A DNA stretch of 64,000 bases, from NCBI RefSeq assembly GCF_004339015.1, contig NZ_SMFQ01000003.1, positions 1,054,001-1,118,000 of the forward strand, in the 5' to 3' direction. The position numbers and the translations under genes were made by a program. The notes beneath the pieces are model-generated. The model did not search any database. It had not been told where the DNA came from and was given only the letters and a program-made list of their open reading frames with translations. Below, in pieces: positions 8,817-62,932 of this stretch. The stretch is from Cocleimonas flava (lineage in GTDB: Bacteria; Pseudomonadota; Gammaproteobacteria; Thiotrichales; Thiotrichaceae). Each line of letters starts with the position of its first letter. The first letter of the stretch is position 1.

Positions 8817-8921
8817 TCGATGAGGTGAACCAATAAACGAGGAGAGCAATCAACCAACAAAGCAGCGAAAAAAAACCACTCAAGACCTAGTAACAAATTT
8901 AGCTTTCAAGATCGACCATCG

Positions 8922-9014
8922 TACGTCGACGATTCCTTACGGAATCTACGACGGACTTTCTTGGCTCTTGATGAGCCTAAGAAAGCCACCTCCCCACTTA
9001 CAGGCACTTTTTTA
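8922..9014 (+). repeat. Composite two-hairpin repeat, copy R1
   Basis: The first hairpin has arms of 12 nt around TTAC (GTCGACGATTCC with GGAATCTACGAC, 10 of 12 paired). The second pairs CTTTCTTGGCTC with GAGCC(T)AAGAAAG. A C6TACTT-type element with a T-run ends it at 8987-9013. It is related to R2 and R3 at 15.5-15.75 kb. Confidence 0.8.
8987..9013 (+). repeat. C6TACTT element, variant
   Basis: CACCTCCCCACTT, then ACAGGCAC and six T. It forms the 3' end of composite repeat R1. Confidence 0.7.
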
Positions 9015-11904: not shown

Positions 11905-11931
11905 CACCCCCCTACTTTGAGGCGTTTTTTT
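11905..11931 (+). repeat. C6TACTT element, exact core
   Basis: Exact core CACCCCCCTACTT, then TGAGGCG and seven T, downstream of a plus-strand gene. A degenerate T-rich stretch with repeated TTTTTACAGA-like words continues to about 12016. Confidence 0.9.
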
Positions 11932-15425: not shown

Positions 15426-15546
15426 TTGCTCATAGTGTCATCATTTTTTAAAGCGGACAATCGCATTTGCTGATCGGTGCGTTTTGAATTGCTTATTGAT
15501 GTCGCTATTAATAAAACAGTTATGCCCCTACCGTTATGCCCCAATA

Positions 15547-15606
15547 AATGTACATCGACGATTCCTTACGGAATCTACGATGGACTTTTCTGGCTCTTGG
15601 TGAGCT
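15547..15606 (+). repeat. Composite repeat, truncated copy R2
   Basis: This is nearly identical to 15657-15716: the loop reads TTAC here and TTGC there. It breaks off after TGAGC, halfway through the second hairpin, and lacks the C6TACTT end. Confidence 0.85.
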
Positions 15607-15656
15607 CTCATTCCGAAAAAATTCGAGTCAGAATATGCATTAGTCTTATATCAATC

Positions 15657-15752
15657 AATGTACATCGACGATTCCTTGCGGAATCTACGATGGACTTTTC
15701 TGGCTCTTGGTGAGCCTAGAAAAGCCACCCACCTACTTTGGGGGCATTTTTT
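15657..15752 (+). repeat. Composite two-hairpin repeat, full copy R3
   Basis: Hairpin 1 is GATTCC-TTGC-GGAATC. Hairpin 2 pairs CTTTTCTGGCTC with GAGCC(T)AGAAAAG. The element at 15726-15752 ends it. Compared with R1, two base pairs of hairpin 2 change on both arms so that pairing is kept. Confidence 0.85.
15726..15752 (+). repeat. C6TACTT element in R3
   Basis: CACCCACCTACTT, then TGGGGGCA and six T. It forms the 3' end of composite repeat R3. Confidence 0.8.
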
Positions 15753-15858
15753 AATTCTCTCTCCGAAGATTCCGTTTATACTTAACAGCTGACTGATACC
15801 ATTAGATCAAAACTAATGATTAGTATCGAATTAATAAAGATTTGAGAGAGCAGTATCC

Positions 15859-20115: not shown

Positions 20116-20976
20116 TTAACAGCGACTATCCTTAAAGTTCATCCAGCCTAAACCTTCATTTGTAGTCGCTCTTGGGCGATATTCTGCACCTACATAACCC
20201 GTATATCCCAATTCATATAACCAGCTTAATAATCGGCCATAACACACTTCACCTTCATCGGGTTCGTGTCGTGATGGCACTGCGGCAATCTGAACATGTT
20301 GAATATATTCAAGATATTGCTCGAGTTTCTTCATCAAATTTCCTTGCGCGACTTGAATGTGATAACAATCGAACATGATTTTGATATTAGAACGACTTAA
20401 GCAGGCAACGGTTTCTACAGCCGTTTCAATATCTGAAAGATAATAGCCCGGTATATCCTGACGGTTTATAGGTTCTATCAATATACCGATGTCGTGATCA
20501 GCCGCGAGGTCTGCCGCGTAATTTAAGTTACTCAAATAGACATCAAAACAGGATTCCAAATAACCATTAGACACCCCCCCACTTTGGAGCACTTTTTCTG
20601 GTATCTTGCCCGACATCACATGGACGTGTTGTGCGTTTATCTGTGCAGCGTAATCAACAGCTTGCTTAATGTATTGACGAGCTTCGTTTTCTCTTTCTGG
20701 AATAGCGCATACGCCAAAGTCGCCTGCGCTAAGATCGCCTGGTAATGTATTTAAACTCAACATTGGCAAACCTGTCTCTTCCAAGGCTTGCTTGACGTCT
20801 TCTGCGGGAGTTTCAAACGGCCAGTGACATTCCACTGCATCAAAACCTGCGTTAGCAGCAGCATGAATACCTTCTACCAAGCTGAGTTCCTGCCAAAGAA
20901 AGCCAAGATTTGCTGATAGCTTATTGGAAGGATTAATGGACTGATTTATTGATTGATGTGTAGTTGTCTTAATCAA
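20116..20976 (-). CDS. Hydroxypyruvate isomerase-like TIM-barrel protein
   Basis: The 286 residues resemble Hyi of the xylose isomerase-like TIM barrel superfamily. Visible segments are SANLGFLWQELSLVEG near 21-36, GFDAVECHWPFE, INAQHVHVMSGKIPE, ILIEPINRQDIPGYYL, IKIMFDCYHIQ and HVQIAAVPSRHEPDEGEV. Hyi interconverts hydroxypyruvate and tartronate semialdehyde, but the true substrate is unproven. A copy of the dispersed element sits in frame and encodes EKVLQSGGV in a loop near residues 126-135. Confidence 0.8.
   Translation of the reverse strand: MIKTTTHQSINQSINPSNKLSANLGFLWQELSLVEGIHAAANAGFDAVECHWPFETPAEDVKQALEETGLPMLSLNTLPGDLSAGDFGVCAIPERENEARQYIKQAVDYAAQINAQHVHVMSGKIPEKVLQSGGVSNGYLESCFDVYLSNLNYAADLAADHDIGILIEPINRQDIPGYYLSDIETAVETVACLSRSNIKIMFDCYHIQVAQGNLMKKLEQYLEYIQHVQIAAVPSRHEPDEGEVCYGRLLSWLYELGYTGYVGAEYRPRATTNEGLGWMNFKDSRC
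20572..20597 (+). repeat. C6TACTT element inside the Hyi-like gene
   Basis: CACCCCCCCACTT, then TGGAGCAC and five T. It lies wholly inside the coding region and in the opposite direction to it. On the coding strand it reads KVLQSGGV without disturbing the frame. Confidence 0.85.
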
Positions 20977-22888: not shown

Positions 22889-22916
22889 AAAAAACGGGCT
22901 GAAAGGTGGGGGGGTG
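22889..22916 (-). repeat. C6TACTT element, variant
   Basis: Read on the minus strand: CACCCCCCCACCTTT, then CAGCCCG and six T. It lies between two minus-strand genes, so it could follow the binding-protein gene. Confidence 0.7.
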
Positions 22917-27853: not shown

Positions 27854-27880
27854 CACCCCCCTACTTTAAGCGACATTTTT
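27854..27880 (+). repeat. C6TACTT element, exact core
   Basis: Exact core, then TAAGCGACA and five T. It lies 29 nt past the nhaD stop, between convergent genes. Confidence 0.85.
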
Positions 27881-30767: not shown

Positions 30768-30926
30768 GAGTGAGTCAAAAACTATGATTCATAGTATTTC
30801 ATTATAATCATAAAGATAGCAGAATCTGATTAACAGTTTTCTATAATCTATTTTATTTATGGATTAATTAATCATATTTAAGGCTATTCAAAACAATAGC
30901 ATCACATTTAAGTATCACATAAGAGG

Positions 30927-30952
30927 AAAAAGTGCCCCAATGTACGGGGGTG
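30927..30952 (-). repeat. C6TACTT element, variant
   Basis: On the minus strand: CACCCCCGTACATTGGGGCA, then C and five T. It lies in a divergent gap where no transcript should end. Confidence 0.75.
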
Positions 30953-32262: not shown

Positions 32263-32289
32263 AAAAAAATGCCCGTAAGTAGGGGGGTG
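32263..32289 (-). repeat. C6TACTT element, exact core
   Basis: On the minus strand: exact core, then ACGGGCA and seven T. It lies between two plus-strand genes, so it points against local transcription. Confidence 0.9.
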
Positions 32290-34551: not shown

Positions 34552-34578
34552 AAAAAAGTGCCTATAAGTAGGGGGGTG
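34552..34578 (-). repeat. C6TACTT element, exact core
   Basis: On the minus strand: exact core, then ATAGGCAC and six T. It starts 8 nt past the mntP stop. Confidence 0.9.
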
Positions 34579-36585: not shown

Positions 36586-36612
36586 CACCCCCCACCTTTG
36601 GGGCTTTTTTTT
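36586..36612 (+). repeat. C6TACTT element, variant
   Basis: CACCCCCCACCTTT, then GGGGC and eight T. It lies in a divergent gap between the DUF302 gene and the APC permease gene. Confidence 0.8.
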
Positions 36613-40179: not shown

Positions 40180-40207
40180 AAAAAAAGTGCCCCAAAGGTG
40201 GGGGGTG
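40180..40207 (-). repeat. C6TACTT element, variant
   Basis: On the minus strand: CACCCCCCACCTTT, then GGGGCAC and seven T. It lies downstream of the HAD gene and between convergent genes. Confidence 0.8.
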
Positions 40208-41050: not shown

Positions 41051-41078
41051 CACCCCCCTACTTTGGGGCACTTTTTTT
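41051..41078 (+). repeat. C6TACTT element, exact core (model copy)
   Basis: Exact core, then TGGGGCAC and seven T. It lies just upstream of the HAD start and downstream of no plus-strand gene. Confidence 0.9.
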
Positions 41079-45514: not shown

Positions 45515-45574
45515 AGAGTTAAGTTAACTGATTATAGCGAAGCTGTGATAGTAGCCGCTTAGTGCTTTTATGAT

Positions 45575-45600
45575 AAAAAACCCCTCAAAGTGGGGGGGTG
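45575..45600 (-). repeat. C6TACTT element, variant
   Basis: On the minus strand: CACCCCCCCACTT, then TGAGGGG and six T. It lies between two minus-strand genes, downstream of the MscS gene. Confidence 0.8.
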
Positions 45601-49747: not shown

Positions 49748-50109
49748 TCATAACCAACTACATTTAAAATTATTATTAAATTGCCCATACCTATCTGTCA
49801 TTTAATTTTCTGGCTTAAATCGATAGGTCATTAAAATAGATCATTAAAAATAGATCATTAAAAATAGATCATTAAAAATAGATCATTAAAAATAGATCAT
49901 CAAAAACGGTGATTAAAAACAGTATAGAACCAGATTAATAAAAAAGGCAGAAAATCAATCGATCTCAGGATTAAATGGCTCAGAAATACTTATAAACTGT
50001 TTGAGTTTTAAAAACGACCTGAGCGTTTAAGCAGATTCTGATTTGTTTAACTTGAAAAAATTAAATACGTTAAATACGTAATAAAGGTCGAACACTAAAC
50101 CACAAAACC
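49748..50109. other. Gene-free stretch with a tandem array
   Basis: Apart from the 14-bp array at 49824-49906 I see no gene, promoter or terminator. Confidence 0.6.
49824..49906. repeat. 14-bp tandem array, six units
   Basis: TAGATCATTAAAAA occurs four times in exact head-to-tail order. It is flanked by one diverged unit on each side (TAGGTCATTAAAA and TAGATCATCAAAAA). Confidence 0.95.
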
Positions 50110-51264: not shown

Positions 51265-51290
51265 CACCCCCCTACTTACAGCTGTTTTTT
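51265..51290 (+). repeat. C6TACTT element, exact core
   Basis: Exact core, then ACAGCTG and six T. It lies between two minus-strand genes, in the opposite direction to both. Confidence 0.9.
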
Positions 51291-51321
51291 CTATAGGTAT
51301 CTGAATTTGATAATAAATTAT

Positions 51322-53719: not shown

Positions 53720-53747
53720 CACCCCCCTACTTTGAGGCGTTTTTTTT
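53720..53747 (+). repeat. C6TACTT element, exact core
   Basis: Exact core, then TGAGGCG and eight T. It lies upstream of fdxA and downstream of the SLC13 gene, opposite to both. Confidence 0.9.
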
Positions 53748-55765: not shown

Positions 55766-55792
55766 CACCCCCCTACTTTGAGGGCTTTTTTT
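55766..55792 (+). repeat. C6TACTT element, exact core
   Basis: Exact core, then TGAGGGC and seven T. It sits in a fully divergent gap, so it cannot terminate either neighbouring gene. Confidence 0.9.
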
Positions 55793-55868: not shown

Positions 55869-56058
55869 TAACCCCGTTCTATTGTTATTTCCCTATGATT
55901 TTTTTTCGTGATTTATTTCACAGAATCAGCAGAAAAAACATTCTATTCTGTTTAACTGGGTTGATTCCATTATCTCAGCGTTAACCCGCATGAAAATATT
56001 CCAATATTTTCTAGTGTGAGAAAGCCCCATAAACACAATATTTTGAGTGGAGACCATC

Positions 56059-59000
56059 ATGACCGCAAACTCGTTTGCTAATTCTGCGACACCCCAATCG
56101 CCAATCTGTAAATTATTCTTCATCGTCTTTTTCAGTTTATTTAGCCTAGCGACGAGTGTTTCTGCAAATGCAGAAGATAAAGCGATCATCGTTTTTGATG
56201 CATCGGGCAGTATGTGGGGGCAATTAGATGGTAAAACAAAAATAGAGATAGCCAAGAAAACACTGTCAGATGTGGTAACAAACTGGGATGACGAAAAACA
56301 GCTGGGCTTACTTGCCTACGGACACCGCAGAAAAGGCGATTGTTCAGACATAGAAACGCTGGTTCCTGTTGGCAAAAACAATAAAGCGGCGATGATTTCT
56401 AAGGTGAACAAAATTAATCCCAAGGGAAAAACCCCGATTAGTGCCTCCATTAAAATGGCTGCTAATGAATTAAAATTCACCGAAGATGATGCCACCGTCA
56501 TCCTCATCAGTGATGGCAAAGAAACCTGTAATGCCGACCCGTGTGAAACAGCGGCTGAATTGGAAAAGCTCGGGGTTAATTTTACCGCGCACGTTATTGG
56601 TTTTGGTGTCGACAAACAAACCAGCGAACAACTTCAATGTATTGCGGAAAATACCGGCGGCCTGTACTTCCCAGCGGATAGCGCAGAACAACTCAGCGTT
56701 GCCTTAAAGCAAATTGTAGTCAAAGCCAAAGTCATATCAATACGTGCGATAGATGAGAAAACCGGTGAGGTCTTCCCAAAAATAATCGACTGGAAACTCA
56801 TCAATCAATACACCGAAGAAGTCATCAGTCTAGAAGGCTCAGGCGCTGGTGTAGAAATACTCTTAGCAGGCGATGAAACAGACAATAATAGTAAAAATAT
56901 CGTCACGACAGAAAAATCCATCACTGCCGGAAAATGGCTAGTCAGTGGAACAAGTGGAAATTATTCAGGCGAAGCGTCCGTCAACATCGAAGATAACGAT
57001 CAAAAGATCAGCATAAACTTCAATAAAAAATTACCCAAAGTTGTGATTAATGCGGCAAATGAAGCAATCACAGGCACAGAATTAGATGTTAGCTGGGAAG
57101 CACCCAAAGACTTAAAAGGCTTAATCAACCTGCAACTCAGCGAGGACGAACCGAAATACCACGCCAGCCCGTTAAAACACACAAAAGGCATTAGTGAAAC
57201 CACACTACGGTTACCCTCTGTCGCTGGTGAATACGTACTGCGCTTCTATGACAACCAGGACAGAATGGTATTGGCAGAACATCCGATTACTTTAAAAGAA
57301 GCGGAGATAGTCATCAACGCGCCAGAAGAAATTGGCACCGGAACCGAGCTTGAGCTTTCGTGGATAGCACCCAAAGAAGCCAAAGCAAAAATCAATCTGG
57401 AAGCGGCGGATGACAAACCGAAATTCCACCGCAATCCGCACCTCTATGTCAAAAATAAGAAAAAAGAAGGAGTCATGCGCATGCCTGCAACCGCAGGCGA
57501 TTATGTACTGCGTTGGTATAACCAAAGTGATCGAAAACTAGTCACCGAAAAACCGATCACACTTGTCGAATCCACCATTACCTTGAATGCTCCGGATCAG
57601 GCAGGAACAGGCAGCGAGTTGGAACTATCCTGGGAAGCACCTAAAACAACAGAGGCCAAAATCAATCTGGAGCTGGAAGGCGATAAACCAAGGTTCCACA
57701 GCAATCCGCATCTTTCTGTTGATGACAGGAAAAAACAAAGAATTATGCGAATGCCAGCAACCGCCGGAAATTACATACTGCGCTGGTATAACCGTAGCGA
57801 TCAGAAAATCGTTCTGGAAAAACCGATTACATTAGTAGAGTCAGTGATTACCATCAATGCGCCTGATCAGGCTGAAACTGGCACCGAAATCGATCTATCG
57901 TGGGAAGCTCCGAAATCAACCCAGGCTGTTATCAATTTACAACTGGCAGATGAAAAACCCAAATACCACAGTCGTCCTTATCTTAATACCAAGGGTAAAA
58001 CATCCGCCACCATGCGCATGCCGGCAATTGAAGGTGACTATGTACTGCGTTGGTATAACATTAGTGATCAAAAGATTGTCGCTGAGCACCCGATTAAATT
58101 AACAGCAGCAGCGATCACTATCACAGCACCTGATGAAGCCGGGGTTGGAACCGAAATCGATTTATCATGGGAAGCGCCAAAATCATCCAGAGCCGTTATC
58201 AATTTACGATTGGCAGATGAAAAGCCCAGCTATAACAGTCGCCCCTACCTTTATACAAAAGGTAAAACATCGGCCAGTATGCGCATGCCTTCAGAACCCG
58301 GAGAGTATGTACTGCGTTGGTATAACGAGAGTGACCAACAGATTGTCACTGAACGTCCCATTAAACTAACGCCAGTAGCAATCACCATCACAGCACCAGA
58401 TGAAGCACAAGCGGGAACCGAAATCGATCTATCGTGGGAAGCGCCTAAAACATCCAAAGCAGTGATCAATTTACAACTGGCGGATGAAAAACCGAACTAC
58501 AACAGTCGTCCCTATCTATATACCAAAGGGAAAACATCCGCCACAATGCGCATGCCATCTCAAGCCGGAGAGTATGTATTGCGCTGGTATAACGAGAGTG
58601 ACCAACAGATTCTCGCTGAACGTCCACTCAAAGTAACACCGGTGGAAATCACCATCACAGCACCTGATGAAGCACAAGCAGGAACCGAAATCGATCTATC
58701 GTGGGTGGCGCCTAAAACATCCAAAGCAGTTATCAATTTACAACTGGCAGATGAAAAGCCCAGCTACAACAGTCGTCCCTATCTTTATACCAAAGGGAAA
58801 ACATCAGCCAGTATGCGTATGCCTTCAGAAGCCGGAGAGTATGTATTGCGCTGGTATAACGAAAGTGATCAACAGATTCTCACTGAACGCCCATTAAAAG
58901 TAACACCAGTTGAAATCACCCTAAGCGCCGATGACGAAGCCATCGCAGGCACAGAAATCGAAGTAGCCTGGGATGCGCCAAAAGGTCTGGATGCTTTCAT

Positions 59001-59454
59001 CAATGTTCAATTGGCCGATGAGAAACCAAACTACAACGCAAAAAATTACATCTATACCAAAAAGAATACTTCGGACTATCTACGACTCCCCTCAGAAGCG
59101 GGAGATTATGTATTGCGCTGGTATAACAAAAATCATAGAACCCCAATCGCAGAACGCCCGATAAAACTCATCGCGCCAGACATCACAATCAACGTACCCG
59201 ATGAGATAAAGGCAGACACAGAAATAGAAATATCCTGGGAAGCACCAAAAGGATTAAATAATCCGTTTATCAATATCCAGCCAGAAGGTGAAAAGCCAAA
59301 CTACAATACAAAAAAATATATCTATACCAAAAACAAGCAATCAGACTACATGAAAATGCCCGCAAAGCCTGGTGTATACGTGCTGCGCTGGTATAACCAC
59401 GGCGTAACCAAACCCATCATAGAAAAGAAAATTACAGTTAATTCGAATGAATAA
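56059..59454 (+). CDS. Exported VWA protein with nine 89-residue repeats
   Basis: From the ATG at 56059 (GGAG 6 nt upstream) the protein has 1131 residues. A signal peptide ends near SANAED. A von Willebrand factor A domain covers about 40-220, with the metal site residues in VFDASGSMWG, GKTPISASI and LISDGKETC. A bridging domain spans about 225-327. Nine beta-rich repeats of about 89 residues follow from residue 328. Each runs GTEIDLSWEAPK, INLQLADEKP, YLYTKGKTSA, MRMPS, GEYVLRWYNESDQ and IKLTP. It is probably a surface or periplasmic binding protein. It stands alone. Confidence 0.88.
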   Translation: MTANSFANSATPQSPICKLFFIVFFSLFSLATSVSANAEDKAIIVFDASGSMWGQLDGKTKIEIAKKTLSDVVTNWDDEKQLGLLAYGHRRKGDCSDIETLVPVGKNNKAAMISKVNKINPKGKTPISASIKMAANELKFTEDDATVILISDGKETCNADPCETAAELEKLGVNFTAHVIGFGVDKQTSEQLQCIAENTGGLYFPADSAEQLSVALKQIVVKAKVISIRAIDEKTGEVFPKIIDWKLINQYTEEVISLEGSGAGVEILLAGDETDNNSKNIVTTEKSITAGKWLVSGTSGNYSGEASVNIEDNDQKISINFNKKLPKVVINAANEAITGTELDVSWEAPKDLKGLINLQLSEDEPKYHASPLKHTKGISETTLRLPSVAGEYVLRFYDNQDRMVLAEHPITLKEAEIVINAPEEIGTGTELELSWIAPKEAKAKINLEAADDKPKFHRNPHLYVKNKKKEGVMRMPATAGDYVLRWYNQSDRKLVTEKPITLVESTITLNAPDQAGTGSELELSWEAPKTTEAKINLELEGDKPRFHSNPHLSVDDRKKQRIMRMPATAGNYILRWYNRSDQKIVLEKPITLVESVITINAPDQAETGTEIDLSWEAPKSTQAVINLQLADEKPKYHSRPYLNTKGKTSATMRMPAIEGDYVLRWYNISDQKIVAEHPIKLTAAAITITAPDEAGVGTEIDLSWEAPKSSRAVINLRLADEKPSYNSRPYLYTKGKTSASMRMPSEPGEYVLRWYNESDQQIVTERPIKLTPVAITITAPDEAQAGTEIDLSWEAPKTSKAVINLQLADEKPNYNSRPYLYTKGKTSATMRMPSQAGEYVLRWYNESDQQILAERPLKVTPVEITITAPDEAQAGTEIDLSWVAPKTSKAVINLQLADEKPSYNSRPYLYTKGKTSASMRMPSEAGEYVLRWYNESDQQILTERPLKVTPVEITLSADDEAIAGTEIEVAWDAPKGLDAFINVQLADEKPNYNAKNYIYTKKNTSDYLRLPSEAGDYVLRWYNKNHRTPIAERPIKLIAPDITINVPDEIKADTEIEISWEAPKGLNNPFINIQPEGEKPNYNTKKYIYTKNKQSDYMKMPAKPGVYVLRWYNHGVTKPIIEKKITVNSNE
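57040..59442 (+). repeat. Nine-unit tandem coding repeat, about 267 bp each
   Basis: Each unit encodes about 89 residues. Units 5-7 (about 58110-58920) are nearly identical in DNA, while units 1 and 9 at the ends are the most diverged. That is the usual pattern of recent expansion in the middle of an array. Confidence 0.92.
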
Positions 59455-61508: not shown

Positions 61509-61535
61509 CACCCCCCTACTTTGAAGCCATTTTTT
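61509..61535 (+). repeat. C6TACTT element, exact core
   Basis: Exact core, then TGAAGCCA and six T, preceded by AAAAGC as in composite repeats R1 and R3. Divergent gap. Confidence 0.9.
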
Positions 61536-62904: not shown

Positions 62905-62932
62905 CACCCCCCTACTTTGGGGCGGTTTTTTT
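62905..62932 (+). repeat. C6TACTT element, exact core
   Basis: Exact core, then TGGGGCGG and seven T, 31 nt past the membrane protein stop. Confidence 0.9.

Follow-up and report, generated by a model that had tools for sequence, protein, structure and literature searches.

A C-rich, T-tailed repeat of Cocleimonas as a candidate DNA uptake signal with species-specific dialects, and the copy of it lodged in an isomerase gene

A repeat of about 26 nt, composed of a C-rich core (CACCCCCCYACTTW), a spacer and a T-run, is spread genome-wide in the marine sulfur bacterium Cocleimonas flava and is abundant, in the form of species-specific dialects, in 9 of 12 genomes of its genus. Its many copies, clade limits, dialects, core with 3' T-tracts, non-coding preference, opposed pairs and apparent origin in place suggest a Cocleimonas-specific signal working like the DNA uptake sequences called USS and DUS, a reading that is judged to have an even chance of being correct. 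Given slightly less credence is the wider proposal that Cocleimonas has independently evolved a third self-DNA uptake system, whose C6/T-tract motif would have split into several dialects among the species of one genus, with no more than strays, or none at all, in three congeners. An earlier note on a 64-kb stretch of this genome (the window) had drawn attention to a copy lying within a TIM-barrel enzyme gene, which it took for an in-frame insertion and for an argument that the element moves; that copy is better read as a conserved signal accommodated by a permissive loop.

In what follows, G000 denotes the genome under study and G001-G011 the other genomes of the genus. Strict copies from G000 and G007 have a T3 at positions 11-13 and the T-run at positions 21-26 of the core alignment, joined by a spacer (G/A-rich in the copies of G000, in those of G007 mostly resembling TAGG or AAGG), and they are preceded by a weaker A/T-rich sequence upstream of the core; two T-tracts are plain in the versions of G002 and G009 as well. 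Genome-wide in G000, the core has two subtypes, in which positions 13 and 14 are coupled: the usual base after ACTTT is G (97 of 139), and after ACTTA it is T or C (88 of 99).

The abundance of the repeat in G000 is far above that of its controls. A strict pattern run over the whole genome gave 346 forward and 122 reverse matches (the latter inflated by overlapping T-run ends), as against 0 and 0 for the backward control. In 70 unmasked pieces totalling 1.353 Mb, a search for copies with a T-run and no more than one core mismatch found 282, of which 236 have no core mismatch, compared with 3 in the reversed sequence; extrapolation to the whole genome gives about 936 copies, or about 1 per 4.8 kb. 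The sampled copies are predominantly intergenic (256 of 282, or 91%, with 20 inside ORFs and 6 at piece edges), while intergenic DNA makes up 14.6% of the sampled sequence by a simple ORF call. Within the window, 25 sequences match the 14-nt core when three mismatches are allowed, against 3.07 expected, and none of 100 shuffles reached 25; the copies described are listed below together with the enzyme gene.

Repeat copies and the isomerase gene in the 64-kb window
Feature	Position	Strand	Remarks
TIM-barrel sugar isomerase gene, 286 aa	ORF 20116..20976	-	hydroxypyruvate-isomerase-like
Repeat copy inside enzyme gene	20572..20597	+	full sequence CACCCCCCCACTTTGGAGCACTTTTT; core CACCCCCCCACTTT, spacer GGAGCAC, T5
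Repeat copy	8987..9013	+	imperfect core; at end of ~65-nt second repeat
Repeat copy	11905..11931	+	exact core
Repeat copy	15726..15752	+	1 core mismatch; at end of ~65-nt second repeat
Repeat copy	22890..22916	-	imperfect core; partner in G007
Repeat copy	27854..27880	+	exact core
Repeat copy	30926..30952	-	imperfect core
Repeat copy	32263..32289	-	A-type core (CACCCCCCTACTTA)
Repeat copy	34552..34578	-	A-type core
Repeat copy	36586..36612	+	variant core CACCCCCCACCTTT
Repeat copy	40181..40207	-	variant core; partner in G007
Repeat copy	41051..41077	+	exact core
Repeat copy	45574..45600	-	same sequence in G007; flanks nearly identical too
Repeat copy	51265..51291	+	A-type core
Repeat copy	53720..53746	+	core kept in G007 within diverged flanks
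Repeat copy	55766..55792	+	core kept in G007 within diverged flanks
Repeat copy	61509..61535	+	exact core
Repeat copy	62905..62931	+	exact core

The dialects fall into two main types. Cores of the CACCCCC(C) type, each with its own spacers, occur in G003, G006, G007, G008 and G011, and the versions of G003, G006, G008 and G011 have their own upstream bases too; G002 (core ACCCATCCCCCCTGTTTTTTATATATTTTT), G009 (a similar form) and G010 (CCACCCCCCCTGTTTTTCGATGATTTGTA) carry a type, CCCCCC[TC][GT]TTTTT, that has an additional T-rich tract. The whole-genome patterns gave strays in G001 (9 and 3 matches) and G004 (2 and 3) and none in G005, and k-mer surveys of 40-80 kb each from G001, G004, G005, G014, G015 and G022 returned no such C-run motif among their top words. 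Outside the genus, the CACCCCCCYACTT type had 0 matches in 45 genomes, 1 among 368 other genomes of the class and no more than 3 in any of 51 other genomes of the family, and the CCCCCC[TC][GT]TTTTT type, for which the search was limited to the family, had no more than 5 in any of these 51; one viral contig matched the G000 form. In samples of G002 (L239, L240, L241), a CTGTCCTCTGTC-type minirepeat lies directly upstream of several elements.

Between G000 and G007, the core stands out as conserved against diverged flanks. Ten paired non-coding copies, aligned without gaps, are identical at 131/140 core and 57/60 T-run positions, as compared with 42/70 in the spacer, 38/50 at 1-5 nt upstream, 127/250 at 6-30 nt upstream and 129/300 downstream, a contrast that is somewhat overstated because small indels depress the outer figures and the pairs were found via their cores. 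Among the 38 copies on contig 7 of G007, 16 had usable anchors in G000, and by eye 11 of these had a partner there, ten of them being the non-coding pairs just described, and 5 had none, the latter counting against the uptake reading. Clean empty sites were not visible among the intergenic regions of the two genomes, the flanks of which are too diverged.

Conservation of this kind would also be expected of a DNA-protein binding site with another role, in nucleoid organisation, replication, segregation or recombination (in the manner of the polar Chi and KOPS sites), an explanation to which a low probability is assigned and which the strand distribution initially seemed to favor. The lagging strand carries the C-rich sequence in 179 copies and the leading strand in 61 (44 were dropped for weak skew), copy orientation flips where GC skew flips, and 34 of 36 strict cores within 304 kb lie on one strand; in G011 and G003, the contigs mostly agree with local skew. 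Like KOPS and Chi, the repeat is thus oriented with replication and G-rich on the leading strand. Nevertheless, the base frequencies of intergenic DNA predict a ratio of 1.57:1 for the full consensus and 2.47:1 for the core only, as against the observed 2.93:1, and C-rich words outside the elements, which may include decayed copies, are skewed likewise (596:199 overall and 79:36 for CCCCC). Because these base-composition and C-rich-word controls predict most of the bias, it is regarded as mostly compositional, and in G006, where 7 copies from two contigs were compared, just 3 agreed with local skew; a replication-polar function, the first impression gained from the strand bias, was set aside on these grounds. 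The repeat is, moreover, longer than KOPS and Chi, and it resembles neither in its 91% intergenic location or in its change of dialect from one congener to the next.

A further candidate is a bidirectional intrinsic terminator, or another intergenic signal acting at the RNA level, that would be kept since it ends transcripts; this is considered improbable, with a small but appreciable chance. Copies are densest between convergent genes (2.72 per kb, vs 1.43 in tandem and 0.77 in divergent intergenic regions), which suits a terminator and counts against the uptake reading. The T-run also suits a terminator, and the pairs within 120 bp, which among 284 copies comprise 12 tail-to-tail, 4 head-to-head and 1 direct, would make long stem-loops when tail-to-tail. 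Folding of the G-rich strand gives a mean energy of -7.4 kcal/mol, a value that comes without a shuffle control, but the T-run strand of single copies gives a mean of -3.8, no better than that obtained when spacers are re-dealt among copies, a control of low power because the spacers are alike. A hairpin is accordingly unsupported as a conserved feature of single copies on the T-run strand. In tandem regions, 64 copies have the same orientation as the genes and 77 the opposite, so that their direction is independent of transcription, and the arrangement of hairpin and T-run co-oriented with the upstream gene that marks intrinsic terminators was not found. The 20 of 282 copies inside ORFs likewise argue against a terminator, which needs no strictly conserved C-rich core.

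The copy in the isomerase gene bears chiefly on a third alternative, namely that the repeat is a short non-autonomous mobile element of the REP/MITE kind that was inserted in frame, which is hardly probable. The 286-aa protein scored best with the NCBIfam model for 2-oxo-tetronate isomerase (NF043033), at 283.7 bits, below the cut-off of 325. As the earlier note had stated, a full copy with its T-run lies inside the gene and encodes KVLQSGGV right after HVMSGKIPE; sequence and ORF agree on this. The copy is antisense to the ORF, and the protein reads ...HVMSGKIPE-KVLQSGGV-SNGYLE. The loop, defined as the residues between VHVMSG and NL, was measured by regular expression in 80 of 93 loci (L031-L123) and is 26 residues long in G000 and G007, the two records of the latter being the only ones of the 80 with this length; the 78 others have 10-17 residues. 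Twelve of the 13 loci that the expression missed were aligned and proved to be the gene itself, ten shorter versions and one that is not orthologous, the thirteenth being a fragment outside the comparison. In the congeners G011 and G008, which are more distant than G007, the loop has 17 residues. The claim that the loop is longer than in relatives therefore stands, but the gain is not the approximately 8 residues that had been proposed: within the genus it amounts to 9 residues, whose 27 nt nearly equal the 26 nt of the element, and relative to the commonest lengths, 13 and 14, to about 12-13.

Recency of the insertion, by contrast, does not survive the comparison. The G007 orthologue, with 93.6% DNA identity, shares the long loop and retains the repeat there in damaged form (CCCCCCCCCACTTTCGGGCACTTTTT), from which it follows that the gain predates the split of G000 and G007. 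An alignment of orthologues had been proposed as the means of placing the insertion exactly at the element; a 9-residue gap against G011 and G008 does appear, but it is placed differently under four mafft settings, overlapping the element and never coinciding with it. An element-length insertion may have occurred at this site, yet this is no demonstration of a mobile element, given that the gain is old, that its gap is not exactly placeable and that loop length varies in any case (10-17 residues); no direct flanking duplication was seen by eye around the copy. The length match and the two core subtypes are the features that could point to copying, and they count to that extent against the uptake reading.

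REP elements with RAYT (Y1) transposases are comparable to the repeat in being short, intergenic and present in many copies. Y1 genes do occur in the repeat-bearing G002, G007, G009 and G010, but no Y1 match was found in the repeat-bearing G000, G003, G006, G008 and G011 (G003, G008 and G011 being less than 90% complete), and G001, G004 and G005, in which the repeat is absent or nearly so, each have one or more. From this distribution, REP/RAYT mobilisation was judged unlikely, and single copies also differ from REP elements in that their T-run strand forms no strong hairpin. Elements lie within about 3 kb of the Y1 genes in G002, G007 and G009, a spacing that falls within their ordinary density.

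Other genic copies argue likewise against mobility. Six out of the 20, chosen for their recognisable relatives, were compared with orthologues in G007, G011, G012, G015 and G022 where these were found and spanned the site, so that with the enzyme copy 7 of the 20 were examined. Four, in proteins taken from their sequence patterns to be PhoB-, LpxD-, PrlC- and DacB-like, were made by codon substitution in a conserved stretch with length unchanged; these copies are present in G000 and G007, intact or with one mismatch, and absent from the other orthologues that span the site. The remaining two, in presumed RecB- and MidA-like proteins, lie in hypervariable loops that differ in length between species, and the MidA-like protein has a copy of the core in G011 also. 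Most of the genic copies examined thus appear to have formed in place, since four of six arose by substitution without a change of length. In general, a repeat within a gene need not be an insertion.

Turning to uptake, known uptake sequences were confined to Pasteurellaceae and Neisseriaceae according to a 2006 paper (PMC1626085), and searches of the open-licence literature found no paper containing cccccctacttt and none joining DNA uptake sequences with Thiotrichales. Judged by its core, the element lies outside the known USS and DUS families, whose cores differ (AAGTGCGGT, ACAAGCGGT and GCCGTCTGAA are not matched by the consensus). Here too, as is characteristic of both families, a short motif is strongly over-represented in its host clade. 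With the Pasteurellaceae USS the repeat shares a short asymmetric core, AT- or T-rich tracts on the 3' side, many copies, a non-coding preference, opposed pairs, subclade-specific types and genic copies that arise by mutation (PMC1626085), and in both the AT-rich tracts lie on one side of the core about 12 nt apart. The Cocleimonas core is, in contrast, C6-based and not AAGTGCGGT or ACAAGCGGT, and the repeat, known from sequence alone, is sparser, strand-skewed and split into several dialects in one genus. The DUS of Neisseriaceae resemble it in having dialects that differ between related species and members without an obvious one (PMC3630211), and differ in their unrelated sequence and in being without flanking motifs (PMC1626085).

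Such uptake would proceed as follows: a protein at the tip of the type IV pilus would recognise the C-rich core and the T-tracts, about a helical turn apart, on outside DNA, and kin DNA carrying the element would be preferentially imported and recombined. Copies would accumulate by mutation and biased uptake and then stay conserved, settling mainly between genes and, in a few cases, within genes at sites that can accommodate the encoded peptide, the enzyme loop among them. The competence machinery is represented in G000 by ComEC, DprA and GspH-type pilins, and across the genus by ComEC in 11 of 12 genomes, DprA in 11 of 12 and GspH-type pilins in 12 of 12; the genomes without a ComEC match (G003) and without a DprA match (G010) both bear the repeat and are incomplete assemblies (89 and 92%, respectively). 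These genes are not discriminating, being equally present in G001, G004 and G005. Against the uptake reading also stand the density, set against about 1 per kb for USS and DUS, and the lagging-strand bias, mostly compositional as it is, since no general orientation bias is reported for the known USS and DUS.

If a third, unrelated case of uptake sequences with dialects in one genus is real, it would provide a new test bed for the co-evolution of receptor and motif, and would also test whether uptake itself drives such motifs or some other function maintains them. Should the repeat prove to be a terminator or a protein-binding site instead, the conserved core and the dialects would still need explaining.

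Several other repeats were observed alongside. In the window, a second repeat of about 65 nt (with ATTCCTT[AG]CGGAATCTACGA) lies at 8913-9013, 15542-15605 and 15650-15753, and in the sampled pieces 4 of 6 copies of it run straight into element-like sequence. Rfam, at the gathering threshold, had a tRNA as its sole match in the window. In samples of G009 (L288-L291), a word set around CCCCACACTCGTGGGGA recurs about 40 times in 36 kb and may represent a CRISPR array. Lastly, a 14-nt tandem repeat (AAAATAGATCATTA) lies between ORFs at 49833-49920 of the window, and about eight tandem units of 267-270 nt at 57071-59454 fall within a 1135-aa ORF (56047-59454) for a repeat-domain protein.
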